Positions 33,889 through 60,664 of a stretch of DNA of 64,000 nt are shown piece after piece. Origin of the DNA: Propionivibrio sp. (GTDB taxonomy: Bacteria; Pseudomonadota; Gammaproteobacteria; Burkholderiales; Rhodocyclaceae); the NCBI RefSeq assembly GCF_029255185.1, contig NZ_JAPUVO010000117.1, forward strand, positions 1 to 64,000, given 5' to 3'. Made by a program: the position numbers and the translations under genes. Position 1 is the stretch's first letter; every line of letters starts with the position of its first letter. The notes under the pieces are model-generated. The model was not told the origin of the DNA and searched no databases. It saw only the letters and a program-made list of their open reading frames with translations.

Positions 33889-33933
33889 TGGTGGGCCCGC
33901 ACGGACTTGAACCGTGGACCAAAGGATTATGAG
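33889..33933 (-). pseudogene. 3' part of split tRNA-Ile(CAU); attachment site at left end
   Basis: On the minus strand this reads CTCATAATCCTTTGGTCC, then a T-arm CACGG-TTCAAGT-CCGTG, the acceptor strand CGGGCCC and ACCA. Together with 60,622-60,664 it rebuilds a perfect 77-nt cloverleaf with anticodon CAT. Upstream of CTCATAATCCT the sequence changes to a non-tRNA flank (GAGGGG), so the 5' half is missing here. The 11-bp core at 33,923-33,933 is the crossover site. Confidence 0.9.
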
Positions 33934-34089
33934 CCCCTCGGAAACGCGCCCTCTCAACTTGTGCGTTGCTTTTAAGTTGTTGAGTGCAAAGGCTAGTTCA
34001 TGTTTCTCGACACGAACCCAAACCACAAATTCGGAACCAGAAGTGTACCAGACGGGGTCTGATGTACCGGAACCGGACCGGAAACCGGG

Positions 34090-38285: not shown

Positions 38286-41198
38286 TCAGGAACTCTCCGT
38301 CAGGAAGCGCTCAACTTCCAGGCTCGGGAAACGAGCACGCATCTTTTCAAGAAACGTGACAACCTCGGCAGTCGCCGGCACCACGTGTTCCACAGGGTGT
38401 TCTCGGGTCCCGTTTTTCACGGCCGATACCGAGGTTTTATATCCTTCCGAAGTCAGCCATTCCGCCAGTTTGCGCTGGCTGAGATCAGCGCCGTCGAGAC
38501 CCCACTGCCTCTTCTGGTAGGCAGCCAGAAAAAGCTGTTTGGCGACAGCAAGGTAACCCCCACGCGTCAAATTCTTCCGGCCGGTCCGCTGCCCGTTCCC
38601 GTTGTGCGTCGGAGAAGCTGGTTTTGCTCCTTTGAGCGTTGCCATCTTGAACGCACGGTAATACTCCCAGGACTGGAAGTCCTCAACGGTCTTGAGGCAG
38701 TGGTTGTCGCGCCAAGCATCGAAGATCAGGCGGGTCATCAGCGCTTCATCGACCGTGCCCCAGGGCTCGGTATCGAATGCCAAATGGCTTTGATCGGTGC
38801 CTGCCATCTCAACCATACGCACACTGGCCGGGATAGGCCGGCGTTTAAAATCGTACTCAAGGTTGATCCGCGTTTCCCGCGTTTCTGTTTGCAGATCGAG
38901 TTCCAGCGGTAGTTGGTCACGCATTGAAATGAAGGATTCGTACGTGATTTTCTGGCCAGGTTGGCGATTGATCGTCAGGTCCAGCATGAAGGCGTTTTCG
39001 TCTTCGACTTCGGGCCCCGGCTTGATGCCGCCTTTGGCCGTGACCGTTTTATGATCGCCATCCGCTTCGACCGTGAATTGCAGGCGGGTCCGGCCGGCGA
39101 ACAGTTGCATTACTTGGTGCTTGTTTTCCAGCATGTGCGACTCTGGGGAGACGCGATCGACGAGATCCTGGAAGCGCCGGCACATGACGCCCGTCAGGTC
39201 CAGTTGCTCGATCGGGCAATCGACCAGGAAACCATCGGTCGTCGCACTGACCACCGTCGTTCCGGCCGGCAGCCGCCAGAGGATTTCGGCGATCACGGCG
39301 CGGATGAATCCGCAGACCAGCGCAGCGATGGCTGCTTCGGATATCCGTGAGGTGCCGACGATGACGCTCCCCATTTCGCGAACGCCCCATGCACGCTTTC
39401 GTTTGAAGCCTTGGCCGGTCTTGCCATAAAGGCTACAGCCGAGCAGTTTCACGAACTCGAAGGGCAAGGTTTTCCGGGCAAATGGATCGCGCGTAACGCG
39501 GATGAAAACCGCATAGCTCTCAAACAGCCGATAGCCCTCATCATCAGAAATTATGCGCGGATGCTGCTGCTCTGTTTGGCCAACCTGCGTGTCGTCGCAT
39601 TCTTCTGCAGGCGACGTGGCTTTCTTCTTGGGGCGATGCTTGCCTGGGGTCTCCGAGCTGCGCGCGAAAACGTCCTCGCGCTTCATCCAGGGGATGACAA
39701 TGCCGTGCTTGATGACCACCTTGGCGCCCATGGCCACCGCCAGCTCTATTTCCGGCGCCGTGCATAGCGACTCGCCGCGACGCGGAAACAAGAGCCCGCG
39801 ATCTTCGGTGGAAACGGGAAGGCAGGGATACTTCACCTCGTCGGGAAACGAGAACTCGACCAGGGCGAACCCCGCCACATGGCCGATGAAATCGGCGACA
39901 TCCTTGCTCCAGAATACTTCGTCATAGTCGAGGGTGTAGAGGTAGGCCAGTGCAGAAAGATAGGCGCCAGACAAATCGGGATCGTAGAAACGTCGGCGCT
40001 CGGTCGGTCCATAAGTGAAGCACTGGTTATGACCACCGATGAAGACGTCGGCCAGAAAGGGCTCCAGCCACTTGCGAATCCGCTTCGGGACGCGTTTCTT
40101 CTGCGTGTAACCCACGCCGGTGGTGTTGTCCCAACGCGTCAGTTGCTTGACCTCATAGTTCAGGGCGACGTCGAGTGCCACGCCATCGCGACGGATACAG
40201 GCTTCGCCGATACGTACAGCCAGGCCACTGGCGGTGGCCGACAGGTGACGCATATCCATGCCCAGGTGACGGCTGGCGAACCACGTTACCCAGAGCACGA
40301 ACATCACCGCGATTTCAGCGTCGCGTAAGCCATACGCTTCGTATTCCTCCGGCCGCTCACGCTGGAAGCGCGCCATGTCAGCCTTGTCATAGCCCGCTGG
40401 TAGGTCGTGCTTCGGAATTCCAAGCCAATTCCCAAGGTGGACAAGCGATTTGCCCGGAGGGGCGAGCCGGCTCGCGTCGATCAGGTGCACATTCAAGAGA
40501 TGGGGTTCAAACTCGTCGCCGACGACGGCTTGGTAGCGGTGTTTGAGCGCCGCTCGGCGATCCGGCGATATTGGCAACTCAATTTTAGCGGGCCGGCTCA
40601 CGGTGACCAAGGTGCCGCCGACCCCTTCCAATTGCGGGCGGAGATGCTTGAAGTCGGAAAAGATCGTGATGTCGGCCCTCGTAAAAAATCCGCAGAGGAC
40701 AACCTCTACAGGGCGTTCCGTGATGACCCCCGCATCCATGGCAGATTCCAGCAGATCATTGATGACCTCAGCGAGTCGCGGGCGCTGGCTGACGATCTCG
40801 CCGTTCACCACCGGAATGACCATGGTGAAGACTTCACCCGTCGGCCCGACCAGGTAAAACTGAACGCTGAGGATGCGATTCCGACCCTTCCGTGCGCGTG
40901 TCCATTCAGCATCGAAACCGATGAACACCCGAGGACCGAGGCCGCGCTCCGGAAACAGCTTGCGCTCCATCTTCCGTCGTATTGCCCTGCCGACATTCTG
41001 TTTGCCAGCTTGATGCGCTTTCAGGTAGCGCTCGCGTTCCGAAAGCGGTGCGACGGGCTTTTGCGCCAATCCGTGTTTCAGTCGGGCTTCGTCGGTGAGG
41101 CTGTCTTCCATCATGGAAGCGAAGTAGCCATCGCAGAAATGGAGTATTCCTTCATCGCTGGCGCGTTTTGGCTCGCCAGCGGTGGTTTCATTTTTCAC
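38286..41198 (-). CDS. Family B DNA polymerase (pipolin-like)
   Basis: A 970-residue B-family DNA polymerase with proofreading motifs. ExoI is GFDAEW (Asp96, Glu98), an ExoII-like CGFFTRADITIFSDF follows, and ExoIII is YGLRDAEIAV. Polymerase motif A is DPDLSGAYLSAL near 404-415, motif B is KLLGCSLYGKTGQG near 585-598, and motif C is ATTDGFLVD near 652, TTD replacing the usual DTD. The C terminus carries a helix-turn-helix (LSQRKLAEWLTSEGYKTSVS). These features fit protein-primed or primer-independent PolB of mobile elements. Start is GTG 41,198, after CGGGGGATACATAGC. Replication of the element is the inferred role. Confidence 0.85.
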   Translation of the reverse strand: MKNETTAGEPKRASDEGILHFCDGYFASMMEDSLTDEARLKHGLAQKPVAPLSERERYLKAHQAGKQNVGRAIRRKMERKLFPERGLGPRVFIGFDAEWTRARKGRNRILSVQFYLVGPTGEVFTMVIPVVNGEIVSQRPRLAEVINDLLESAMDAGVITERPVEVVLCGFFTRADITIFSDFKHLRPQLEGVGGTLVTVSRPAKIELPISPDRRAALKHRYQAVVGDEFEPHLLNVHLIDASRLAPPGKSLVHLGNWLGIPKHDLPAGYDKADMARFQRERPEEYEAYGLRDAEIAVMFVLWVTWFASRHLGMDMRHLSATASGLAVRIGEACIRRDGVALDVALNYEVKQLTRWDNTTGVGYTQKKRVPKRIRKWLEPFLADVFIGGHNQCFTYGPTERRRFYDPDLSGAYLSALAYLYTLDYDEVFWSKDVADFIGHVAGFALVEFSFPDEVKYPCLPVSTEDRGLLFPRRGESLCTAPEIELAVAMGAKVVIKHGIVIPWMKREDVFARSSETPGKHRPKKKATSPAEECDDTQVGQTEQQHPRIISDDEGYRLFESYAVFIRVTRDPFARKTLPFEFVKLLGCSLYGKTGQGFKRKRAWGVREMGSVIVGTSRISEAAIAALVCGFIRAVIAEILWRLPAGTTVVSATTDGFLVDCPIEQLDLTGVMCRRFQDLVDRVSPESHMLENKHQVMQLFAGRTRLQFTVEADGDHKTVTAKGGIKPGPEVEDENAFMLDLTINRQPGQKITYESFISMRDQLPLELDLQTETRETRINLEYDFKRRPIPASVRMVEMAGTDQSHLAFDTEPWGTVDEALMTRLIFDAWRDNHCLKTVEDFQSWEYYRAFKMATLKGAKPASPTHNGNGQRTGRKNLTRGGYLAVAKQLFLAAYQKRQWGLDGADLSQRKLAEWLTSEGYKTSVSAVKNGTREHPVEHVVPATAEVVTFLEKMRARFPSLEVERFLTESS

Positions 41199-42103: not shown

Positions 42104-43606
42104 TTACGCCGCAACAAACCGCACCTCGTCGCTCATGGCAAGGCTGCGTATCGAAGGTTTGAGGAAAGGGCGGCCCAACGGGTCAAGTCCAAGGCGCCTG
42201 GCGAGCGATCGTCCAGCTTCACCGGCCGCGTACTGCAGGCGGCTGTTGGGCGCCACCAAGTAGAACTTCTCGGTGACGCGGACGCTGGAGTGGGTCAACA
42301 GCTTGCTGGCGTCGTGCGCGGTCACGCCCGGAACTTGTATGCATGCTGTTGCAAACCCCCGCCTGAATGCATGGAGCGTTAGGCCAGAAACACCCGCCCG
42401 CTTGCTGAACTTCTGGAACGCATGACCGGGGTCGCCGAGCGGGCCTCCGCTTGGGGACCCGAAGAGATAGCGACTCGTTGCCAAGGCTTTGCGCCGGGTA
42501 AGCACCGTCAATGCAACATCGCAGAGTTGAAGTGTCTCAACCCGGCCGCTCTTCGTTTCACGGACCGTGAGTACCCTGCGTTCAATGTCGAGGTCACTGA
42601 CCAGCGCGTGGCGCAGTTCGCCTTGTCGGCCGCCGGTGACGATCGCCGTCAAAATGAAGTCGGAAAACACGGTGGCAGGTTCCGCCAGCAACGCTTGCCC
42701 GAGCTTGGCCAGTTGATCGTCGGATGGAATTACCAAGACCGGGTTCTCGACCTGGATCATCTTGATATCAGCCGCCGGGTTGCGCGCGATCAGTTTCAAG
42801 ATCGCCAAGTCGCGGAATATCGACTTGGCGAATGCGACATGTTTCTCCGCATTGGCCGGGGATTCGACGCGTCGGATTTCTTCGATGCCCTGCCGGATGA
42901 CCGGCTCACGTAGCTCACTCAGCCGCTTATCCCCCCACATGCGCTTGATGTGCTTGGGGTACCGGGACCGATCGCTGCGGAGCGATTTTTTTCCGTTCCG
43001 TTCGGAGTTTGGGAAGACCTGCTCGGTGACTGCTTGGTCCAGTGTCATGCGGTCACCTATGCCTGGCAATACACCTTGCGCAAGATCGTCGCGCAACTTG
43101 AAGTGAGCGGCGGCAGCTCGTGCGAGCGACATCTCCGGGAAGGCCCCCAGGATGGAGCAGGTTTTTTTTCCGGTTAGAGGATTCATGTATCGGTCAAGCC
43201 AGCGAAGGGCTCCGGTGTAATACGCTTGGAGAAAAAGCCCCGTAACTCCAGGCACGGTGATCTGCTTTTGGGGTTGTGGTTTCGTACCGACGCCCGATTC
43301 GTATTTTTGCCATGCCACCTGGTTGGCCATGACGTCGTCGATCATTTGTGCAGGAAGTTGAGTACCAATCCCAGCTAATGCGATTGCAATGCGCGTACTA
43401 GCGGGCAGTTTCTCGCGCCGGCGGTCAGCGATGGACGTTCCTGCTGCGAGCGAATGATCTGGTTTGAGACCCTCAACGAACGATTTCAGCAAGCTTTCCT
43501 GTGCTTGCCGGTGGCGCCTCCAAAGATCCATGCTGACCACAGGGCAAGCTCCGACCGACGGCTGGCTAGCGTCTTTTGCGTCGATAAGTGTTTTCGGTTT
43601 TGTCAT
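42104..43606 (-). CDS. Tyrosine recombinase/integrase 1
   Basis: A 500-residue tyrosine recombinase. The long N-terminal arm (first ~240 residues) holds an AraC-like integrase DUF-type segment; the catalytic domain has VTGGRQGELRHAL (Arg), RRVLTVRETKSGR (Lys), LTLHAFRRGFATA (His, Arg), LTHSSVRVTEKFYLVA (His and nucleophilic Tyr). All catalytic residues are present. It is one of two candidates for integration of the element in tRNA-Ile. It is divergent from the 43,881 gene. Confidence 0.85.
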   Translation of the reverse strand: MTKPKTLIDAKDASQPSVGACPVVSMDLWRRHRQAQESLLKSFVEGLKPDHSLAAGTSIADRRREKLPASTRIAIALAGIGTQLPAQMIDDVMANQVAWQKYESGVGTKPQPQKQITVPGVTGLFLQAYYTGALRWLDRYMNPLTGKKTCSILGAFPEMSLARAAAAHFKLRDDLAQGVLPGIGDRMTLDQAVTEQVFPNSERNGKKSLRSDRSRYPKHIKRMWGDKRLSELREPVIRQGIEEIRRVESPANAEKHVAFAKSIFRDLAILKLIARNPAADIKMIQVENPVLVIPSDDQLAKLGQALLAEPATVFSDFILTAIVTGGRQGELRHALVSDLDIERRVLTVRETKSGRVETLQLCDVALTVLTRRKALATSRYLFGSPSGGPLGDPGHAFQKFSKRAGVSGLTLHAFRRGFATACIQVPGVTAHDASKLLTHSSVRVTEKFYLVAPNSRLQYAAGEAGRSLARRLGLDPLGRPFLKPSIRSLAMSDEVRFVAA

Positions 43607-45539: not shown

Positions 45540-46769
45540 CTAGCCTGAATGAGCGGGTGACGGCGTAGTGCCATCGCTGACCCCGGCCAACGCCGAACCC
45601 AGTCTTGAACTGGCATCGATCAGGTTCTGGTCCGCGAGGAAGGCATACCGCGTCGAGGTCAGGATACTGCTCGCGTGGCCGAGAAGGTTTTGCGCCAAGA
45701 CGAGCCCGCCCGTACCGCCACCCCCTGTGTTGAGGATCAGAGACGCCGCGCTTCGTCGCAAATCGTGGATGTGCAGGTCCTCGATCCCGGCGCGTGCCTT
45801 GATCTGCTCGAAGACCTTCATCGGATTGACGAGGTAGCCACCACGCTTGCCCGGAAACACGTAGTCGCCGGTCGTGGCTTCCCTTCGGGCTTTCAAGATG
45901 TTGAGGGCAAAATCGTTCAACGGGATCAAGCGCGACCGCGCACTTTTCGCGCGCTCAGCCGGAATGCGCCAGAGTCGGTCGTCGATAGAAAACTCGCTCC
46001 ACTGAGCCTGTAAGCATTCTTCACGGCGCGCTGCGGTAGCGAGGGCGAACATCAGGAAGTCCGCAGTCACCCGTGATTTTTCTTGTTGGCATTCGTGGAT
46101 GAACCGGCGTAGTTCGTCGCCAGCCAGGACGCGCCGACGAATGTTCATCTCGGGATGCAGGCGCACACCGCGACAGGGATTCTTGTCGCAGCGTTCAAGC
46201 ATGATCGCGACGTTGCAGACACGCTTCAACAAAGCGAGGATGCGATTCGCCGTCGCTGCACAACGTCGTTCGCGATTGCGGTTGTGAAACCGCATCACGT
46301 CGGACGGGCGAAGCTGACTGAAGCGTAGGTTCCCGAATTCCGGTGCGATGTGTAATCGCCAGCGTGTCTCCAAGCAGGCAGCGCTTTTGAGGTGCCGACC
46401 CTGCTGCGGCCAATATTCTTCGTCAAAGAACTCATTCAGCGTTGGCTCAGCGATGAACTCCTGACGCACCGCTAGCGGATCGATCCCCCGACCGATGTTG
46501 GCGCGGTGTTCCATCGCGATTCGGCAGGCTTCTGCCGGATCGATCGACGGATAGTCACCGAGCTTGATCGCCCGCTTGAGGCCGGGGCCACGGCCGGTCG
46601 GCATCGTGTAGCGCTGGAGCCAGGATTTCGCGCCGCGCTTGTTGACGACCAATCGCAATCCCGGCGGGGCCTCCAGTGAGGTGTATTCAATCTCGCGTCC
46701 GCCGTGATCGGGCGGACAAGGAGGAAGGCCATCGATGACCTTCCGGGTAAAACGAATGCGACGTTGCAT
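45540..46769 (-). CDS. Tyrosine recombinase/integrase 2 (P4-like)
   Basis: A 409-residue integrase with the P4/DUF4102-type N terminus (RFTRKVIDGLPPCP, LRLVVNKRGAKSWLQRYTMP) and a SAM-like domain. The catalytic residues are in LATAARREECLQAQW (Arg), RAKSARSRLIPL (Lys), IHDLRRSAASLILNT (His, Arg), LLGHASSILTSTRYAFL (His, Tyr). P4-type integrases usually insert into tRNA genes, which makes this the better candidate for the tRNA-Ile event. Start ATG 46,769. Confidence 0.88.
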   Translation of the reverse strand: MQRRIRFTRKVIDGLPPCPPDHGGREIEYTSLEAPPGLRLVVNKRGAKSWLQRYTMPTGRGPGLKRAIKLGDYPSIDPAEACRIAMEHRANIGRGIDPLAVRQEFIAEPTLNEFFDEEYWPQQGRHLKSAACLETRWRLHIAPEFGNLRFSQLRPSDVMRFHNRNRERRCAATANRILALLKRVCNVAIMLERCDKNPCRGVRLHPEMNIRRRVLAGDELRRFIHECQQEKSRVTADFLMFALATAARREECLQAQWSEFSIDDRLWRIPAERAKSARSRLIPLNDFALNILKARREATTGDYVFPGKRGGYLVNPMKVFEQIKARAGIEDLHIHDLRRSAASLILNTGGGGTGGLVLAQNLLGHASSILTSTRYAFLADQNLIDASSRLGSALAGVSDGTTPSPAHSG

Positions 46770-47003
46770 CGTCGATCCTCCATCGAAAGCAGTTGAAAAA
46801 AATCGAGATGAACCGGCGGTCCGATTCGAGGTGCTGCGCGGGTGCTTGGAGAACGAAACCAACGACCACACGCGACATTCCGGTGAGCGCCAGTCATCAA
46901 GCCTTGTGCTTTCTGGGCACGTCGGCGGCCACGCCGCAGCGGAGGTCGCAGCAAGTACGACCTCCGGTCCATCTCTGGTTTATGAGGAAGCGGAAGGCAG
47001 CGA

Positions 47004-52874: not shown

Positions 52875-55856
52875 TCAGTAGTACTGCCGAATGTAGCTGT
52901 ACGCCTTTTCGAACAACTCCTCATCGGCATGTAGCTTGTACTTGAACAGCGCCTTCCGCAGCGCCTTCTTTATCTCCCGTTCACCGGCCAGAGTGTCCTG
53001 CCAGCCGGGGAAGCGCACTAGGCGCACGATCTCGTCGATGTCCGCCACCACGCGCTCGACCATGATCGGCGTCTCGGCGGTTTTGACTTCATTGAATAGA
53101 TCGGTCAGCGCCGCCTTGCCGCGATCCTCATCTTCCTCCGGCGGCACGTCCTTCTCGGCCTGAAGCACTTCCCTGGCCAGTTGCAGCAGTTGCTTCAGGA
53201 ACTCGACGCTGTTCAGCACGCCGGACTCGAAGCGATCCCGCAGGGCATCGAGCCGTTCTGAAAGCGCCTTGAATTTCGGGTTGCCGAGGTGCTTGCGCAG
53301 TCGTCGCGCCACCTTGATATCGATTTCCTTGGTCTTCGTCGGATCAGGATTCGACAGCACCGCTTCCAGCAAATCGGCATCCAGCACCAGCGTATCGAGG
53401 TCATCGCGGACGGCATCGACATGCACGTTCTGATGGATCAGTTCGATGGTCTTGGCCCCAAGGGAATGCCAGATCAGCTTGCCGTGGCCGCTGGAGGGCT
53501 GCACCGACTGATACACCTGCGACAGCCACTTGTAGTCCTTCTCGTACTGGCCAAGGATGGTGTCGGGCGAAATGGCCTCCCACAACTTATTGAGCAGGCT
53601 AAACGCTCCGGCGAAGTTGTCGCGCACCTCGTTATTGGGTAGGCATTGCTGGGCGGCGATCAGTCCTTCGTAACCCTCGACGGTGCGATCGACGCCGGCA
53701 AAGAAGGCCAGACATTTCTGCATTGCCTCGGGTAACCGGTCCTTCAATTCCTGAATGTTCGACACCACCGCCGTTACGCTCTTGTCGTCGAATTCCAGCG
53801 CCTTGGCCACATCGTCGAAGATGCCGAGGTAGTCCACGATCAGGCCGTGGGTCTTCTGTTCGGAGTACGTCCGGTTCACCCGGCAGATGGCCTGCAACAG
53901 CGTGTGGTCGCGCAGCGGCTTGTCGAGGTACATCGCCTGGAGAATCGGCGCATCAAAGCCAGTCAGCAGTTTGGACGTGACGATGATCAGCTTCAGCGGA
54001 TCGTTTGGGTCGCGGAAGCGATCCAGCAGACGTTCCTCTTCATCCCGGCTACGACTGAACGCCTTGTATTGGGGCTCGTTGGCGTTGACGGTCATGACGA
54101 CCTCGCTCGCCTCCGGCGGCAGCAGCTTGTCCAGTTCGGTCTTGTAGAGCAGGCAGGATTCGCGGTCGAAGGTGACGATCTGGCCCTTGAAGCCGTTCGG
54201 TTCCACCTTGTTCTGGAAATGCTGAACGATGTCCTCGCAAACGCGCCGGATGCGCTCCGGCGTCTTGACCAGCACCGCCATCTTGGCGGCGGTTTTACCG
54301 AGGTTGTCCTTGTCGATATCGGAGAGCCCGCCGGTCATCTCCTTGAATGCGGCGTCGATGGCGGCCTTGTCGATATGCAATTCCAGCAGACGCGGCTCGA
54401 AGTGCAGCTTCAGCGTCGCTCCGTCGCGAATCGACTCCTCGAAGCCGTAACGGCTCATGTAACCCTTGGCATCCTCATCGGCACCGAAGGCGTAAAAGGT
54501 GTTCTTGTCGAAACGATTGATCGGCGTACCGGTCAGGCCGAACAGAAAGGCGTTCGGCAGAGCATCGCGCATCTTGCGGCCCAAGTCGCCCTCCTGGGTG
54601 CGGTGTGCCTCATCGACCAGGGCGATGATGTTGCTGCGCTCGTTGAGTGCACCATCCGCCTCGCCGAACTTGAAGATCGTGGTGATGATGATCTTGCGCA
54701 CATCCTGCGCCAGCAGTTGCTGCAGCTTGTCGCGCGTCTCGGCCTTCTCCAGATTCGGGATGTCGGCCCCGGTGAAGGTGCCGGTGATCTGGGTATCGAG
54801 GTCGATCCGGTCGACCACGATCAATACGGTCGGATTTTTCAGTCGGGGATGCAGGCGCAGTTTCTGCGCCGCGAACACCATCAACAGCGATTTGCCCGAA
54901 CCCTGGAAGTGCCAGATCAAGCCCTTCTTGGGGTAACCGGCCAGCACCCGCTCGACGATCTTGTTCGCTGCCTCGTATTGCTGGTATCGGCAGATGATCT
55001 TGATGCGGCGCTTTTTCTTGTCTGTGGCGAACAGGGTGAAACTGGAGAGGATATCCAGCACCACATGCGGCCGCAGCATACTCTCGGCGGCGAGCTTCAA
55101 ACCATGCAAGGGATGCCGTTGCGGGTCACCGCCATCGGCATCCAGATTCCACGGCCCCCAATCCTTGACCGGAAGGCCGAGCGAGCCATAGTGGTATTCC
55201 TTGCCCTCAGTGGCCACCGAGAACACATTGCAGACAAATAACTCGGGCACGAACTTCTCGTAGTCGTCATGCACCTGCAAGGCGCCATCGACCCAGCTCA
55301 CTGCCGCCCGCGTCGGCGTCTTGGCCTCGATCAGTACCAGCGGCAGGCCATTGACCACCAGCATCAGGTCGGCGCGACGTTCGGCGCTGCCAGCGCGGAA
55401 GGTGAATTGCTGGGTGACGACGTATTGGTTCTGCTCCAGGTTGTCGAAATCGATCACCCGCACCGGCACATGTTCATTGTTCTGGCCGAAGGGCATCGAG
55501 CGTTCGCCCCTGATCCACGCCATCATTTCCTCGTTGGCGCGAATCAGGCCGTCGGAGCGCACCGACAGCACGATGGCGCGCAGCCGATACAGCACTTCGT
55601 CGGCGCGGTCGGGCTGGGCAGCGATTTCCGGGTTGAGGCGGATCAGCGCCTCGCGCACCCAGGACTCGACCAGCACTTCCTGCGGCTGGCGCGGAAAGTC
55701 GGCGCTGGCGAGACGGCGCCAGCCGAGGCCCTTGTGGTTGCGGCCGTAATGGCTTTCTGGCTCCTGAACAGCGTTGACCGCAACAGGCTTGCTGGAGCCG
55801 GAGAGCAGGTCGTAGAGGTAGGCTTCGACGGTGTTGGCTTCGTTAAAAATCGCCAT
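52875..55856 (-). CDS. hsdR: Type I restriction enzyme R subunit
   Basis: A 993-residue restriction and translocation subunit. The N-terminal nuclease has LPLVLIEAKTPTRAA (ExK) near residue 175; helicase motifs are WHFQGSGKSLLMVF (Walker A) near 315, LVDEAHRTQEGD, LFGLTGTPINRF and later ICRVNRTYSEQKTHG. Length fits HsdR. It cleaves DNA far from unmodified sites after ATP-driven translocation in complex with HsdM and HsdS. It starts 4 bases after hsdS and is the last restriction gene of the operon. Confidence 0.95.
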   Translation of the reverse strand: MAIFNEANTVEAYLYDLLSGSSKPVAVNAVQEPESHYGRNHKGLGWRRLASADFPRQPQEVLVESWVREALIRLNPEIAAQPDRADEVLYRLRAIVLSVRSDGLIRANEEMMAWIRGERSMPFGQNNEHVPVRVIDFDNLEQNQYVVTQQFTFRAGSAERRADLMLVVNGLPLVLIEAKTPTRAAVSWVDGALQVHDDYEKFVPELFVCNVFSVATEGKEYHYGSLGLPVKDWGPWNLDADGGDPQRHPLHGLKLAAESMLRPHVVLDILSSFTLFATDKKKRRIKIICRYQQYEAANKIVERVLAGYPKKGLIWHFQGSGKSLLMVFAAQKLRLHPRLKNPTVLIVVDRIDLDTQITGTFTGADIPNLEKAETRDKLQQLLAQDVRKIIITTIFKFGEADGALNERSNIIALVDEAHRTQEGDLGRKMRDALPNAFLFGLTGTPINRFDKNTFYAFGADEDAKGYMSRYGFEESIRDGATLKLHFEPRLLELHIDKAAIDAAFKEMTGGLSDIDKDNLGKTAAKMAVLVKTPERIRRVCEDIVQHFQNKVEPNGFKGQIVTFDRESCLLYKTELDKLLPPEASEVVMTVNANEPQYKAFSRSRDEEERLLDRFRDPNDPLKLIIVTSKLLTGFDAPILQAMYLDKPLRDHTLLQAICRVNRTYSEQKTHGLIVDYLGIFDDVAKALEFDDKSVTAVVSNIQELKDRLPEAMQKCLAFFAGVDRTVEGYEGLIAAQQCLPNNEVRDNFAGAFSLLNKLWEAISPDTILGQYEKDYKWLSQVYQSVQPSSGHGKLIWHSLGAKTIELIHQNVHVDAVRDDLDTLVLDADLLEAVLSNPDPTKTKEIDIKVARRLRKHLGNPKFKALSERLDALRDRFESGVLNSVEFLKQLLQLAREVLQAEKDVPPEEDEDRGKAALTDLFNEVKTAETPIMVERVVADIDEIVRLVRFPGWQDTLAGEREIKKALRKALFKYKLHADEELFEKAYSYIRQYY

Positions 55857-55860
55857 CTGG

Positions 55861-57012
55861 TTACTCCACGGACAATGCCACTTGATGGGCGACCTGCCTC
55901 ATATCGGCTGCTTTCTTAAGTCTGGCTACCAATTGCTGTTCACTGACCTCTATGTCCCTAATGGATTCAACGATTTCACGTTGCCTATCCAGACCTGGAA
56001 CCGGTATCGGAAAGTCCTTCAATAACCCGCAGCTCAGTGCGTGCTGGTTCGTGCCCTGTGACCAGTGACGCAAGGCTTCGTAGTTGCTTTCCAGAAAATA
56101 GAACAGATACCAAGGATCAAGAGTGTTGCCTGGGATAACCGCACCAAAATTCTGATTAATGCATGCTTCAATTGCCAGCATTGCTGCTCGCCCTCTCGTC
56201 TGCCCTTCGCCGATCATCGCAACGAGCGTCGAGCCCGCTGGAATCAGTGTCAGTGGACATTCTTCAAGTGCTTGCTCGGTAATAAACTCATCTGCGGCTT
56301 CAATGATTCGGTCATTAACTTTGCCGGTCGGCAACCATGGAATCGAGCCCTTCCAGTATTCATCTCGTGCCCTTCTGGGCGTTGTGCCGTTGCGTATGTC
56401 GGCAACTGCTCCCATTTTTAGACTCTGGCCATCTACTGACGAAAATGCATCCAGTGCCGCTGACTTTCGCAACTTGGTAGCTGCCGTTAGCGCGACTCGG
56501 ATTGCTCCAATCTGGTCTTCCAAAGCCATCAGCAAATTAACTGTTCGCTGCTGCTCCTCCATCGGAGGCAGCGAGAACTCCTGTATCGCCATCGTCTTCC
56601 AATTGATTGTCGGCGACAGCGAGCCCACCGAAATCTCAATCGCTCGATTCATGAACAGATCACTCTGCATGAAGAAGGGCAGGAACTCCGGCAAAACGAC
56701 CTCGGGCTTTGCGCGCAGCACCATGGCGTGGGCCGAGCAGATGCCATCGAACTCGGCAACGCACAGCTTGCGCTGGTAAGCGCGCCGCTTGGCAAAAATG
56801 ATGTCGCCAGTTTTGAAGAAAAGCTTTCCCGCCTCTACATCGCTCGGGCTACCCCAGCGGCGGATGCGTAACGAATCAGGGTCGAGATGCTCCAGCCCAA
56901 CGTAATGTTCCATGCCGGATTCGGATGGATTGTCGATGCGCACATTGACGTTGGCCGCCATCTGCTCAAAGCGCCAGGTCTTCCAGCCGGGTTTCAATGT
57001 CTTCTCAGCCAC
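55861..57012 (-). CDS. hsdS: Type I restriction enzyme specificity subunit
   Basis: A 383-residue HsdS. Two target-recognition halves are visible: the first ends in the conserved QEFSLPPMEEQQRTVNLLMALEDQIGAIR-like helix (PPMEEQQRTVNLL), the second in FPIPVPGLDRQREIVESIRD. The coiled helices after each set the spacer between half sites. I chose GTG 57,012 (VAEKTLKPGW), which overlaps hsdM1 by 8 bases; the longer frame upstream only reads hsdM1 in another phase. Confidence 0.92.
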   Translation of the reverse strand: MAEKTLKPGWKTWRFEQMAANVNVRIDNPSESGMEHYVGLEHLDPDSLRIRRWGSPSDVEAGKLFFKTGDIIFAKRRAYQRKLCVAEFDGICSAHAMVLRAKPEVVLPEFLPFFMQSDLFMNRAIEISVGSLSPTINWKTMAIQEFSLPPMEEQQRTVNLLMALEDQIGAIRVALTAATKLRKSAALDAFSSVDGQSLKMGAVADIRNGTTPRRARDEYWKGSIPWLPTGKVNDRIIEAADEFITEQALEECPLTLIPAGSTLVAMIGEGQTRGRAAMLAIEACINQNFGAVIPGNTLDPWYLFYFLESNYEALRHWSQGTNQHALSCGLLKDFPIPVPGLDRQREIVESIRDIEVSEQQLVARLKKAADMRQVAHQVALSVE

Positions 57013-58534
57013 GCTCGACCTCCTGGGCTTCCAGTCCATCGAGCGTTTCCACGATGGCGTCCATCTGCTGCCAAAACGCGCGGCCATCGGTTTGCCATTT
57101 TTCCCAGGCCGAACGCAGGCTGACGACTTCGTTGGTGCCGTTGCTGTTCGTTGCTGCGGTCGACCGTTTCACGTAGAGCGGAATCGATAGGTTCGCACCA
57201 TTTGCGGCAATTTGCTCACGTGTCGCGACAGCCGAGAATCCTTCCTCAGTGGCGTAGGCCCGGAAATTTTGCAAGATGCGTTGTTGGTGTTCCGGCTTGA
57301 GGAAGCTCTGCGCCCGCTCCCGCGTCACTTCGTTCAAGGCGTCGATGAACAGCACCTTGCCCTTGCGTGCGGCTGGCTTGCGCCGGTTGCAGACGACGAC
57401 GCAGGACTCCATCGGCGAGTTGTAGAACAGGTTCGGGCCCAGGCCGATTACCGCCTCGACCCAATCCAGCTCGACCATCTTGGCGCGCATGGACTGTTCT
57501 TCGTTGCGGAACAGTACGCCGTGTGGCCAGAGGATGGCGCAGCGGCCCTTGTCACTCAAGCTGGCCAGGATGTGCTGCTGGAACGCATAGTCGGCCCGGC
57601 CTTGCGGCGGGGTGCCGAGGAAGTTGCGGCCCCATTTATCCTGCCCCCAGGCGTCACGATCCCATTGCTTGATCGAATACGGTGGGTTGGCCAGGATTAC
57701 GTCAAACTGGCGCAACCGGTCACCCTCGATGTGCTGCGGGGCGGCCAGGGTATCGCCCCGGCTGATCTGGAAGTCCTCGACGCCATGCAGAAAGAGGTTC
57801 ATCCGGGCGATGCCGGAGGTGATCAGATTGCGTTCCTGCCCGTAGAGCTTGAGCGTGCGATATTCGCCGCCGCTACGCTTGACCTCGGCCAGCGCCGAAA
57901 TGAGCATGCCGCCGGTGCCGCAGGTGGGGTCGTAGATCGACTCGCCGGCCTGGGGCGCGAGCAGTTGCGTCATCAGGTGCACGACGGTGCGGTTGGTGTA
58001 GAACTCGGCGGCCGTGTGGCCGGAATCGTCGGCGAACTTCTTGATCAGGAATTCGTAGGCGTTGCCGAGCTCGTCTTCGGGAACGTTGGCCACCGAGAGC
58101 GTTTGCGTCGAGAAATGCTCAATCAGGTTTTTGAGGGTTTCGTCCGGCAGACGCTCGCGGTTGGTCCACGGCGCATCACCGAAGATACCGGCGAGTAGAT
58201 CGGGGTTGGCCGACTCCAATTGCCGGAGGGCCGACTGGATCGCCATGCCGACATTCTTCGGCACCTGGCGCACGTCGTTCCAGTGCGCGCCCTGGGGAAT
58301 CTGGAAGCGGTGGTTCTCGGCGAATTCGGCGTATGACAGGTCGCCATCCGAGTCGGCTAGCGCTGCCTGGTATTCCTCGTCCCAGACATCCGAGATACGC
58401 TTGAAGAATAGCAGCGGGAAGATGAACTGCTTGTAGTCGCCGGCATCGATGAGGCCGCGCAGCAGGACGGCGGCGCCCCACAGGTAGGATTCGAGTTCTT
58501 GTTGGGAGATTCGCGCTTTGGTTGCATGGGTCAT
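57005..58534 (-). CDS. hsdM: Type I DNA methyltransferase HsdM, paralogue 1
   Basis: A 509-residue N6-adenine methyltransferase. The N-terminal helical HsdM_N domain (QQELESYLWGAAVLLRGLID, FPLLFFKRISDVWDEEYQAA) is followed by the SAM motif YDPTCGTGGMLISALAE and the catalytic FDVILANPPYSIKQWD. NPPY is intact, so the enzyme should be active. It overlaps hsdM2 by 4 bases (ATGA) and hsdS by 8 bases. It resembles hsdM2 but is clearly a distinct sequence. Confidence 0.93.
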   Translation of the reverse strand: MTHATKARISQQELESYLWGAAVLLRGLIDAGDYKQFIFPLLFFKRISDVWDEEYQAALADSDGDLSYAEFAENHRFQIPQGAHWNDVRQVPKNVGMAIQSALRQLESANPDLLAGIFGDAPWTNRERLPDETLKNLIEHFSTQTLSVANVPEDELGNAYEFLIKKFADDSGHTAAEFYTNRTVVHLMTQLLAPQAGESIYDPTCGTGGMLISALAEVKRSGGEYRTLKLYGQERNLITSGIARMNLFLHGVEDFQISRGDTLAAPQHIEGDRLRQFDVILANPPYSIKQWDRDAWGQDKWGRNFLGTPPQGRADYAFQQHILASLSDKGRCAILWPHGVLFRNEEQSMRAKMVELDWVEAVIGLGPNLFYNSPMESCVVVCNRRKPAARKGKVLFIDALNEVTRERAQSFLKPEHQQRILQNFRAYATEEGFSAVATREQIAANGANLSIPLYVKRSTAATNSNGTNEVVSLRSAWEKWQTDGRAFWQQMDAIVETLDGLEAQEVERG

Positions 58535-60018
58535 TGCAGCCAGCCTCCCTCGACCATTACCCGTGCAAGCCGATCCTCGGCCTCCCGGCAACGGGTCAGT
58601 GCATCCTTGAAGGCGGCAATGGCCTCCGGCAGCGGGGGAATGTCCTCTTGCAGGGGCGGCAGCACGTAGCGGGAGATGTTGAGCGTCCAGTCCTCGGCCT
58701 TGATTTCGTCGATACTGACAATGCGCACGGCGTCCTGCACGTCTTCGTACTTCTCGAACCAGCCCTGGATTTCGAGGGCGTGCTCCGGCTCCAGATAGTT
58801 CTGCGCCCGACCGCGTCTGAACAGGCGCGAAGCGTCAGCGATCATCACCTTCTTGCGCCGCCGGGCAGGCTTCTTCTTGCGCAGCACAAGGATGCAGGCG
58901 GCGAGGCCCGTGCCGTAGAACAGGTTGGGCGCCAGGCCGATGACGGCCTCGACCAGATCCATCTCCAGCAGCTTCTGTCGAATGCTGCCTTCAGCGCCCT
59001 TGCGGAACAGAGCGCCCTGCGGCAGCACGACGGCCATGCGTCCGGCACCCTCGGCCATCGACTTGACCATGTGCTGCACCCAGGCGAAGTCGCCGCTGCT
59101 CGATGGCGGCAGGCCGGCGAAGTTGCGGCCGAAGGGATCGTTGATCCATAACTCCTCACCCCACTTTTCCAGGGAGAAGGGCGGATTGGCGATCACGCAG
59201 TCGAAGTTGGCCAGGCGATCGACCTCAAAGAAGGCCGGATTACGCAGGGTGTCGCCGCGCACGATCTGGAAGTCCTCGATGCCGTGCAGGAACAGGTTCA
59301 TGCGGGCGATGGACGAGGTGGTGAGGTTTTTCTCCTGGCCGTAGAGCTTGCCCCACAGACGTTTCACGTCGCCATGACGTTCCTTCACGTGCTGGACGGC
59401 GGCAAGCAGCATGCCGCCGGTGCCGCAGGCCGGATCGTAGATGGTCTCGCCTTCCTTGGGGTCGAGCATCTCGATCATCAGTCGCACCACGCTGCGCGGG
59501 GTATAGAACTCGCCGGCCTTCTTGTTGGTGGCGTCGGCGAATTTCTTGATCAGGTATTCGTAGGCATCGCCGAGTACGTCCGAGGCGATGTCTTTGTTGC
59601 CGAAGGAGATGCGCGAGAAATGCTCGATCAGATCCTTGAGCAGGGCATCGGAGAGGCGATCCTTGTTGGTCCACTGGGCATCGCCGAAAACGCCGTACAG
59701 AGTGTCCGGGTTGGCTTTTTCGATTTCGCGCATGGCGCGCTGCAGGGCATTGCCAACGTTGGTCGCCACGGCACGAACGTCATTCCAGTGGCAGTCATCC
59801 GGAATCTGAAAGCGATGCGACTCGGGGAAGAGGGCTAACTCGGCATCGCCGGTTTCATCGACGATCTCATCGTATTCCTCGTCCCACACGTCGCAAATCC
59901 GCTTGAAGAAGAGAAGCGGGAAGATGTAGGTCTTGAAGTCGGCCGCATCGACAGGGCCGCGCAGGATGTTGGCGGACTCCCAGAGGTGCGACTCCAATTG
60001 GCTTAAAGTTATCTGCAT
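58531..60018 (-). CDS. hsdM: Type I DNA methyltransferase HsdM, paralogue 2
   Basis: A 495-residue HsdM. LSQLESHLWESANILRGPVD and FPLLFFKRICDVWDEEYDEI form the HsdM_N domain, YDPACGTGGMLLAAVQ is the SAM motif, and FDCVIANPPFSLEKWG the catalytic motif in its NPPF form, common in HsdM. It is first in the operon hsdM2-hsdM1-hsdS-hsdR. With an intact second HsdM the complex may contain both subunits or alternate between them. Confidence 0.93.
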   Translation of the reverse strand: MQITLSQLESHLWESANILRGPVDAADFKTYIFPLLFFKRICDVWDEEYDEIVDETGDAELALFPESHRFQIPDDCHWNDVRAVATNVGNALQRAMREIEKANPDTLYGVFGDAQWTNKDRLSDALLKDLIEHFSRISFGNKDIASDVLGDAYEYLIKKFADATNKKAGEFYTPRSVVRLMIEMLDPKEGETIYDPACGTGGMLLAAVQHVKERHGDVKRLWGKLYGQEKNLTTSSIARMNLFLHGIEDFQIVRGDTLRNPAFFEVDRLANFDCVIANPPFSLEKWGEELWINDPFGRNFAGLPPSSSGDFAWVQHMVKSMAEGAGRMAVVLPQGALFRKGAEGSIRQKLLEMDLVEAVIGLAPNLFYGTGLAACILVLRKKKPARRRKKVMIADASRLFRRGRAQNYLEPEHALEIQGWFEKYEDVQDAVRIVSIDEIKAEDWTLNISRYVLPPLQEDIPPLPEAIAAFKDALTRCREAEDRLARVMVEGGWLQ

Positions 60019-60082: not shown

Positions 60083-60110
60083 AAGCCCCAACCGAAACGG
60101 TTGGGGCTCG
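60083..60110 (-). terminator. Terminator of the element-borne tRNA-Ile
   Basis: GAGCCCCAACC, loop GTTTC, GGTTGGGGCTTTTTC on the minus strand, directly after the tRNA CCA end. It also separates the tRNA from the hsd operon. Confidence 0.85.
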
Positions 60111-60113
60111 ATC

Positions 60114-60444
60114 TGGTGGGCCCGCAGGGACTTGAACCCTGGACCAAAGGATTATGCTTACCACTACGGTTTTCACCGCCCCTTTCGGGTTTGTGGTCTG
60201 GACTATACCTTCCCATTACAGGCTGGCCGTCTAGTCTCTACACCTTCCCCCGTCGAGACGGGGGCTTGGCTCGGTATTGGCATCTCCCGCAGGAATTAGC
60301 TTTCACCGACTTTGACCAGTTCTACCTGCCGCCAGAGCGAACTTGGCGACGGGCAACCCAGTAGAAACTTGCCGTGCACCCGTTACCCGGTGTTTAGGCT
60401 CATCTCGCTAAGTCCTCTGCTCTAACCAACTGAGCTACAGGCCC
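60114..60444 (-). tRNA. tRNA-Ile(CAU) interrupted by a group I intron
   Basis: Exons 60,411-60,444 (34 nt) and 60,114-60,156 (43 nt) join into a 77-nt cloverleaf: acceptor GGGCCTG/CGGGCCC, D arm GCTC..GAGC, anticodon arm GAGGA-CTCATAA-TCCTT, T arm CAGGG-TTCAAGT-CCCTG, encoded CCA. The features TTGGTC and GTTCAAGTCC and anticodon CAT mark the minor tRNA-Ile whose C34 is made lysidine by TilS to read AUA, rather than elongator Met. The most parsimonious splice point is between T33 and C34. It lies within the integrated element, close to its rpoD-side end. Confidence 0.9.
60157..60410 (-). ncRNA. Group I intron (254 nt) in tRNA-Ile
   Basis: No open reading frame is inside. The minus strand carries the conserved core of IC3-type tRNA introns: GGTCAAAGTCGGTGAAAGCT (P), CCGAGCCAAGC (Q side), GAAGGTGTAGAGACTAGACG (R/P7) and AAGGTATAGTCCA (S). 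These match the Azoarcus tRNA-Ile ribozyme almost word for word, while the 5' (P2) region is longer than the 205-nt Azoarcus intron. The intron ends in G as expected. It should self-splice with guanosine. The guide pairing (P1) was not modelled with confidence. Confidence 0.9.
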
Positions 60445-60621
60445 GAAACTGCAATTCTACCGGCATGCCCCAATCGGGGTGTGTCGGCAGTTTGTCGTCC
60501 GCTCCAAAGCTGGACCAGAAATGGACCAGACGACTGTTTTACTGCTCTTCCAGGTCAGCCGAAATCGGCCTGGAAGCCTTGCTGCACAAGGGCCACTGAA
60601 AATGCTCGGTTGAGATGTCAG
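60445..60621. other. Element end between tRNA-Ile and attachment core
   Basis: No gene. It joins the element-borne tRNA to the host tRNA 5' half. It contains CCCC-AATC-GGGG near 60,470 and GGCCGATTTCGGC-like symmetry near 60,560, and may hold the arm sites of the integrase. Confidence 0.5.
60454..60459 (-). promoter_or_regulatory. -10-like element before the intron-bearing tRNA
   Basis: TAGAAT on the minus strand, ten bases before the tRNA first base; the -35 side is weak. It would let the element express its tRNA without relying on read-through from rpoD. Confidence 0.4.
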
Positions 60622-60664
60622 AGGATTATGAGTCCTCTGCTCTAACCAACTGAGCTACAGGCCC
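60622..60664 (-). pseudogene. 5' part of split tRNA-Ile(CAU); attachment site at right end
   Basis: The minus strand begins GGGCCTGTAGCTCAGTTGG 8 bases after the rpoD stop codon and runs to CTCATAATCCT, then changes to CTGACATCTC instead of TTTGGTCC. The 43 bases equal the 5' part of tRNA-Ile(CAU), identical to the exon of the intron-bearing copy. The missing 3' part is at 33,889-33,933. The shared core 60,622-60,632 is the crossover site. Confidence 0.9.

Follow-up and report, generated by a model that had tools for sequence, protein, structure and literature searches.

A mobile element that splits tRNA-Ile(CAU) brings a predicted replacement gene whose group I intron likely hides it from the element's own integrase

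Introduction

The logic of breaking a host tRNA gene and rescuing it with an element-borne copy is known already: it is the tRNA-dependent lysogeny of actinobacteriophages (Guerrero-Bustamante and Hatfull, 2024; PMC10865867). According to the available text of that paper, this form of lysogeny has been proven genetically in mycobacteriophages, and in Gordonia phages tRNA-Ile2-CAT is among its targets, with cores of 9-10 bp. Neither rescue-tRNA introns nor an escape of the rescue from the integrase is mentioned in the parts of PMC10865867 that we could draw on; in the papers on tRNA-dependent lysogeny that we could draw on, introns are named only in a reference title, and an intron-bearing rescue tRNA is not described in the titles and abstracts that our searches of the open-licence literature listed.

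Several other systems share features with the locus reported here, as judged from the accessible parts of the sources. Canonical tRNA islands (Islander, PMC4383910) also combine a tyrosine integrase with a crossover in the anticodon loop, but they rebuild their target from an attP fragment, which our element does not. Pre-tRNA-Ile introns of the Azoarcus BH72 type are likewise group I introns in the anticodon loop of tRNA-Ile(CAU), whereas the intron described below is located at position 33|34 and on a mobile element's second copy of the very gene that this element splits; PMC3984707 names the Azoarcus type. Pipolins (PMC7385651) have piPolB, tyrosine recombinases, and a tRNA site with terminal direct repeats, all of which our element has or, for piPolB, likely has; however, the pipolins of E. 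coli are found at a Leu-tRNA gene and no rescue tRNA is described for them, whereas our element is at tRNA-Ile(CAU). For archaea, it has been proposed that disruption makes a tRNA gene a poor target for integration (PMC4390854) and that mobile elements transfer tRNA introns from gene to gene and from cell to cell (Sugahara et al., 2012, via PMC8371274). The archaeal tRNA introns treated there are not group I ribozymes, however, and none of them is on a full rescue copy of an element-split gene.

Here, we analyze an element in a Propionivibrio sp. genome; "the window" denotes the whole stretch of 64,000 nucleotides that was examined. As in tRNA-dependent lysogeny, we found a candidate tyrosine integrase, a short core (about 10 bp in the phages) without rebuilding of the host tRNA, and an element-borne tRNA of the same isotype, with no other copy found in the draft assembly. 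In contrast to the phage systems as far as PMC10865867 presents them, the carriers here appear to be integrative elements of another order (betaproteobacteria by our reading) and not actinobacterial phages; their rescue tRNA is located a few hundred bp inward of attL, and in it either a group I intron interrupts the core or the anticodon stem is altered. An earlier note on this DNA, made from the sequence alone, knew of no described system of this kind; this was too broad with respect to break-and-rescue, which PMC10865867 covers including tRNA-Ile2-CAT; of intron-bearing rescue tRNAs we found no description. What is new is the use of this logic by integrative elements of another order and a rescue tRNA that differs from the target. 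Our main reading, to which we assign a probability of about 70%, is that the element splits tRNA-Ile(CAU), that its own intron-bearing copy replaces the gene after predicted splicing, and that the intron likely hides this copy from the integrase.

Results

On the minus strand of the window, rpoD (62625-60673), the host gene adjoining the target, is followed by the first 43 bases of tRNA-Ile(CAU), which end in CTCATAATCCT, and then by foreign DNA. This 5' half (60622..60664, minus strand), in which the final 11 bp constitute the attL core, comes immediately after rpoD, and the tRNA has the same place in most of the relatives that we read. The missing 3' half, with CCA (33889..33933, minus strand), is found 26.7 kb beyond the 5' half and opens with the same 11 bp, the attR core. 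The 26.7-kb element therefore interrupts the rpoD-linked tRNA-Ile(CAU) gene with a cut inside the anticodon loop, and the 11-bp core forms both of its ends (33923-33933 and 60622-60632). The window contains just these two copies of the core (shuffle mean 0.00), in agreement with the earlier statement that it is absent from the DNA of the intron-bearing gene. Host DNA past the displaced 3' half resembles the tRNA 3' flank of two related genomes, G010 (74.6%, 358 bases) and G398 (75.3%, 231 bases), and joining the flanks in silico yields an intact intronless tRNA-Ile(CAU). As the rpoD-linked half is broken, the 3' half is displaced, and the joined flanks are normal, the segment is an integrated element whose target gene was not rebuilt.

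One could nevertheless read the locus as an ordinary tRNA island, in which the intron-bearing gene described below represents the restored host gene and the halves are fragments of unrelated origin. A canonical-looking arrangement does occur in genome G006, where an intact gene follows rpoD and a lone 3' half lies 28 kb away. In the window, however, it is the half adjoining rpoD that is broken, the flanks join to an intact intronless gene, and the displaced 3' half includes a T arm of its own and leads into the host 3' flank, and no attP fragment rebuilds the target; we therefore regard this alternative as extremely improbable.

Inside the element ends, a 21-bp direct repeat was found on the minus strand at 60512..60532 (attL end) and in the same orientation at 34034..34054 (attR end), with 18 of 21 bases matching between the copies and 2 of 500 shuffles being as good. 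Such candidate arm-type repeats are as expected of integrase arm sites. A comparison of the two ends by shared 8-mers gave a strong signal for the element of G432 (12 versus a null mean of 1.2) a marginal one for G705 and G148 (p 0.02), and no significant one for the window, G080, and G614.

The element carries a complete second tRNA-Ile(CAU) gene on the minus strand (60444-60114), and its distance of 178 bp from the rpoD-side element end is as the earlier note had given it. The 34-nt 5' exon (60411..60444) ends at T33, a 254-nt group I intron ending with G (60157..60410) follows between T33 and C34, and the 3' exon (60114..60156) encodes the CCA. The joined exons form a full cloverleaf with the anticodon CAT and with G-T wobbles as the sole non-Watson-Crick pairs. 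The assignment to group I stood: the intron scored 32.6 bits against Rfam RF00028 (E 2.3e-6 with 901 bases searched; under the curated gathering cut-off of 50), it has the U before the 5' splice site and the terminal G of group I introns, and 29 of 77 predicted pairs were maintained although both of their bases had changed in one or more of 20 aligned sequences, namely the window and 19 same-position relatives. This alignment comprised 20 of the 22 extracted 33|34 introns (G043 and G256 were left out), and L060 was not included. RNAalifold paired the 5' exon elsewhere than in a P1 helix with a guide sequence. The region upstream of the rescue gene showed no sigma-70-like promoter, and the intrinsic-terminator-like hairpin right after it (60083..60109, minus strand) was one where shuffled sequences had a mean of 0.9, and thus not above chance.

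ARAGORN, which labels all CAU tRNAs as Met, reported no tRNA in the window and missed the intron-bearing gene, and Rfam at gathering scores called only the two broken halves. One of these Rfam calls (60565-60664) spans the broken 5' half together with element DNA. With the hybrid call and the missed gene, standard annotation would give a wrong tRNA at this position.

A second intact tRNA-Ile(CAU) elsewhere in the genome had been named as a finding that would speak against the rescue. In a pattern search of the 3.26-Mb genome with up to three mismatches, tRNA-Ile(CAU) was represented by the intron-bearing copy and the split half alone, the remaining matches being two tRNA-Lys genes and one non-tRNA site beside hsdR. 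The genome has 41 tRNA matches, two of which are the broken halves; among the 39 others, the two CAU tRNAs reported by ARAGORN are, by our reading, elongator and initiator tRNA-Met and not tRNA-Ile. No other tRNA-Ile(CAU) was thus found in the draft genome of 141 contigs. As there was no tRNA-Ile(GAU) among the matches either, the rRNA operons are probably missing from the draft assembly. The view that the intron-bearing copy replaces the lost host tRNA is supported by its being the only complete tRNA-Ile(CAU) found and by the recurrence of the same layout in other genomes.

Among the element genes, all on the minus strand, two encode tyrosine recombinases. The first (45540..46871; Arm-DNA-bind_3, Phage_int_M, and Phage_integrase domains) is the candidate integrase, for which a homologue scan of genome contigs returned one distant locus in an Arsukibacterium MAG (23%), and the second (42104..43606) is more divergent. 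A 970-aa protein (38286..41198) had no match in Pfam, NCBIfam, PHROG, or PDB sequences, but tblastn aligned 81% of it with the DNA polymerase of the small Staphylococcus plasmid NC_005006.1 at 22.4% identity (E 2e-32), which makes it a relative of family-B DNA polymerases, likely of the pipolin type. The plasmid enzyme is one that we take to be piPolB. On the basis of this long, low similarity, the element is likely a pipolin, and the hallmarks of a tyrosine recombinase and terminal direct repeats at a tRNA are present as well. The cargo includes type I restriction-modification genes (52875..60018; hsdR, hsdS, and two hsdM) and an ADP-ribosylglycohydrolase. The two methylase genes overlap (57005-60018), beside one hsdR and one hsdS. 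No virion genes were detected among 17 of the element's ORFs that were scanned with Pfam.

No record in the phage and plasmid DNA searches covered 80% of the query, and the matches listed consisted of the intron core or of short tRNA and intron pieces. The tRNA-plus-intron query matched 1,266 plasmid records, the 15 listed of them in the intron core at about 70%. Plasmid pCTX-M3 (NC_004464.2, 61.3-62.6 kb; L424 558-750) contains a group I intron-like RNA in an unannotated stretch (RF00028, 36.8 bits, below the gathering score).

Broken 5' halves of tRNA-Ile(CAU) were found in 7 of 395 genomes of the family and 13 of 399 genomes of the order, corresponding to 18 distinct genomes. A complete tRNA-Ile(CAU) lay within about 400 bp of the broken half in six of the seven family cases and 11 of the 13 order cases, together 15 distinct genomes, as the two samples overlap by two of these rescue genomes. 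Against the main reading, no rescue was found alongside the broken halves of G301 and G665, and G684 reaches the contig end. An eighth match in the family sample, G398, was dropped, as its intron-bearing gene is unbroken. The class sample of 369 genomes contained no case besides the window's own genome, and at this sensitivity the break-and-rescue family looks confined to the order.

Seven elements were closed at both ends, with lengths of 2.85 kb (G080), 8.6 kb (G148 and G705), 19.7 kb (G614), about 21 kb (G784), 26.7 kb (window), and about 33 kb (G432). Their cargo varies, and what they have in common is the cut gene and the rescue gene. The core common to all relatives is CTCATAA, the 7-base anticodon loop, which is shorter than the 11 bp of the window. 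In the element of G080 (L095 1253-4160), which has both broken halves and the rescue tRNA, we noticed no recombinase gene among the ORFs; its two small genes presumably represent a RES/Xre toxin-antitoxin pair.

Eleven of the 15 rescue genes carry a group I intron in the anticodon loop, either at 36|37 (seven genomes: G385, G705, G033, G151, G784, G432, and G080) or at 33|34 (the window, G528, G658, and G443), and four are intronless (G148, G641, G582, and G614). The 36|37 introns resemble the Azoarcus BH72 type. One integrase family accompanies rescues of both intron positions (G033, G432, and G658).

Viral contigs were surveyed as well, with at least 120 stretches in each of two scans and 240 loci examined by script. 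An IMG/VR provirus (L149, about 860-1160) has a rescue tRNA with a 36|37 intron, the anticodon CAU, and an apparent long variable arm, which is an unusual shape for a tRNA. Two further IMG/VR viral contigs have tRNA genes with 36|37-type group I introns (L163 11306 and L202 2325), and by motif only such introns also occur in contigs L214, L217, L247, and L248. Phage introns known by 2014 lay in protein-coding genes, as the accessible part of a review states (PMC3984707). IMG/VR contig 2551306081 (L340/L294) was dropped, as its broken half and the intact copy at its far end probably reflect a gene-restoring island from a 5' half, and L188, L277, L287, and L334, which the script had classed as broken-like, were left out of the counts.

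The rescue role of the element-borne tRNA, as proposed in the earlier note, is thus supported by its sequence, its being the only complete copy found, and the recurring layout. The further suggestion of the note, that the intron protects the rescue gene from the element's own integrase, gained support from comparisons. Among the order-sample matches listed, 9 of 108 resident tRNA-Ile(CAU) genes had an intron. For rescues, the proportion was 8 of 11 within the order sample (Fisher 4e-6 versus the residents) and 11 of 15 with both samples combined (Fisher 1e-7). The resident count comprises 99 intronless and 9 intron-bearing genes from the 113 listed of 162 matching genomes, with three broken genes and two genomes with only tRNA-Met set aside. 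All nine resident intron genes were checked as interrupted tRNAs; seven of them match RF00028 with E 0.015 or better, and G043 and G045 match the window intron.

Both insertion points, 33|34 and 36|37, are inside the anticodon loop that the elements have in common as core, and in two element lineages the members differ in intron position. The ends of the G385 and G705 elements (36|37) and of the window element (33|34) share a homologous stretch of 46 bp, located at an equal offset (85% identity, E 8e-11), and the rescue exons of G385 and the window are identical at 76 of 77 positions. The elements of G080 (36|37) and G528 (33|34) have homologous ends of 109 bp (84%), and their rescue tRNAs and introns differ.

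The intronless rescues provide a second comparison. The anticodon stem of the rescue equals that of the broken host gene in 8 of 12 intron-bearing and 0 of 7 intronless cases (two-sided p 0.013), these 19 cases including, beyond the 15, the decayed sites G010 and G023 and the IMG/VR contigs L348 and L149, with both decayed sites and one of the IMG/VR contigs among the seven. If homologous elements are counted once, the ratio is 0 of 5 versus 4 of 6 (p 0.06), in a test that was conceived post hoc and with an arguable drawing of lineages, as several ends have arm-like words in common. Such words occur at the same offset in the ends of G033, G151, G432, G784, G641, and G582, and within this set the first four combine an intron with an unchanged stem, whereas G641 and G582 combine the lack of an intron with a changed stem. 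The intronless rescue of G023 differs from the decayed host half only at the outer stem pair and at one probably decayed base.

A sober alternative accepts break-and-rescue but gives the intron no function, the element having captured a tRNA-Ile(CAU) gene from a host that had a group I intron at this place. In genus g43, resident genes commonly combine the same exons with a related 33|34 intron, and all 17 matching genomes among those listed have element-free resident group I introns, which counts against a shield. The existence of such residents means that the element could simply have acquired an intron-bearing gene. By plain identity, the window intron is marginally nearer to the resident intron of G338 (82%) than to the rescue intron of G528. 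Kinship between rescue introns of unrelated hosts, on the other hand, speaks for more than a passenger: those of G658 and G443, which come from different host families, are each other's nearest relatives (100/100), and that of the window groups weakly with that of G528 (80/85). A roleless intron would not readily account for an intron frequency in rescues that is far above that of the residents listed, for two intron positions within homologous elements, and for altered stems in intronless rescues, and we consider this alternative unlikely. It also has to be noted that archaeal intron-containing tRNA genes occur among integration sites (Krupovic et al., 2019, via the accessible text of PMC8371274), which speaks against introns as a general shield. 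The comparisons support, short of proof, a role of introns or stem changes in hiding the rescue gene from the integrase.

The intron could also serve mainly to guard what is now the cell's only tRNA-Ile(CAU) from other elements that use the same loop, and not from the element's own integrase. Several different element ends do use tRNA-Ile(CAU), G443 has a rescue-type tRNA half broken by a second element, a case that also counts against the main reading, and for archaea it has been proposed that disrupted tRNA genes protect against integration (Randau and Soll, as reported in the accessible text of PMC4390854). Taken alone, however, exclusion of competitors gives no account of the intronless rescues that differ from the stem of the broken host gene, and as the main role we find it doubtful, albeit compatible with a shield against the own integrase.

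Some loci point to the fate of such elements. At the G010 locus (L037 8668-9250), an intronless rescue of another tRNA type lies between a decayed broken half and the host 3' flank, which adjoins the rescue directly; this order of parts indicates that the element body is gone and that the foreign tRNA is now resident. G023 (L035 1250-1550, read on the minus strand) looks similar, with a decayed broken half and an intronless rescue of another tRNA type. Three tRNA-Ile 5' ends lie in a row in G443 (L137 19734-19008), the first two broken by different element ends and the third with a 33|34 intron; from this arrangement, the locus is read as a tandem accretion at one tRNA. The Azoarcus-like intron of G077 (L425 1543; genus g51) resides in a tRNA-Ile type unlike that of the two congeners that we read (G136 and G179), and this intron-bearing gene is perhaps a former rescue gene. 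The four cases would fit repeated tRNA replacement.

Discussion

The layout of the locus and the rescue reading are strongly supported, and a shield function of the intron is the best reading of the sequence comparisons. The following course of events would explain the observations. A tyrosine recombinase of the element would join attP to the anticodon-loop core of the host gene, the end product of which is seen in the window; of the two recombinases, presumably the candidate integrase acts. The host tRNA is not rebuilt because the ends have a core of just 11 bp in common. The tRNA gene of the element, as the only complete copy found, would then take over. If the anticodon loop of this rescue gene were intact, it would offer the integrase another target within a few hundred bp of attP, and the comparisons suggest that an intron in the loop or changed pairs in the anticodon stem remove the target from the DNA while the sequence is kept in the RNA. 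Finally, the element body would be lost in some genomes and the foreign tRNA would stay as the resident gene, as seen in the scar of G010 and likely in G023.

A wider reading, for and against which we see the odds as even, is that the introns are self-immunity shields and that repeated rounds of breakage, rescue, and loss of the element body replace tRNA-Ile(CAU) and spread introns in betaproteobacteria, perhaps including the textbook Azoarcus intron.

The findings add integrative elements of another bacterial group to the actinophages as users of tRNA-dependent integration. If the shield function is true, a self-splicing intron would have a selectable function, namely to separate target recognition at the DNA level from function at the RNA level. 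It would also provide a reason for the patchy occurrence of group I introns in the anticodon loops of bacterial tRNAs and a route by which foreign genes may replace essential tRNA genes.
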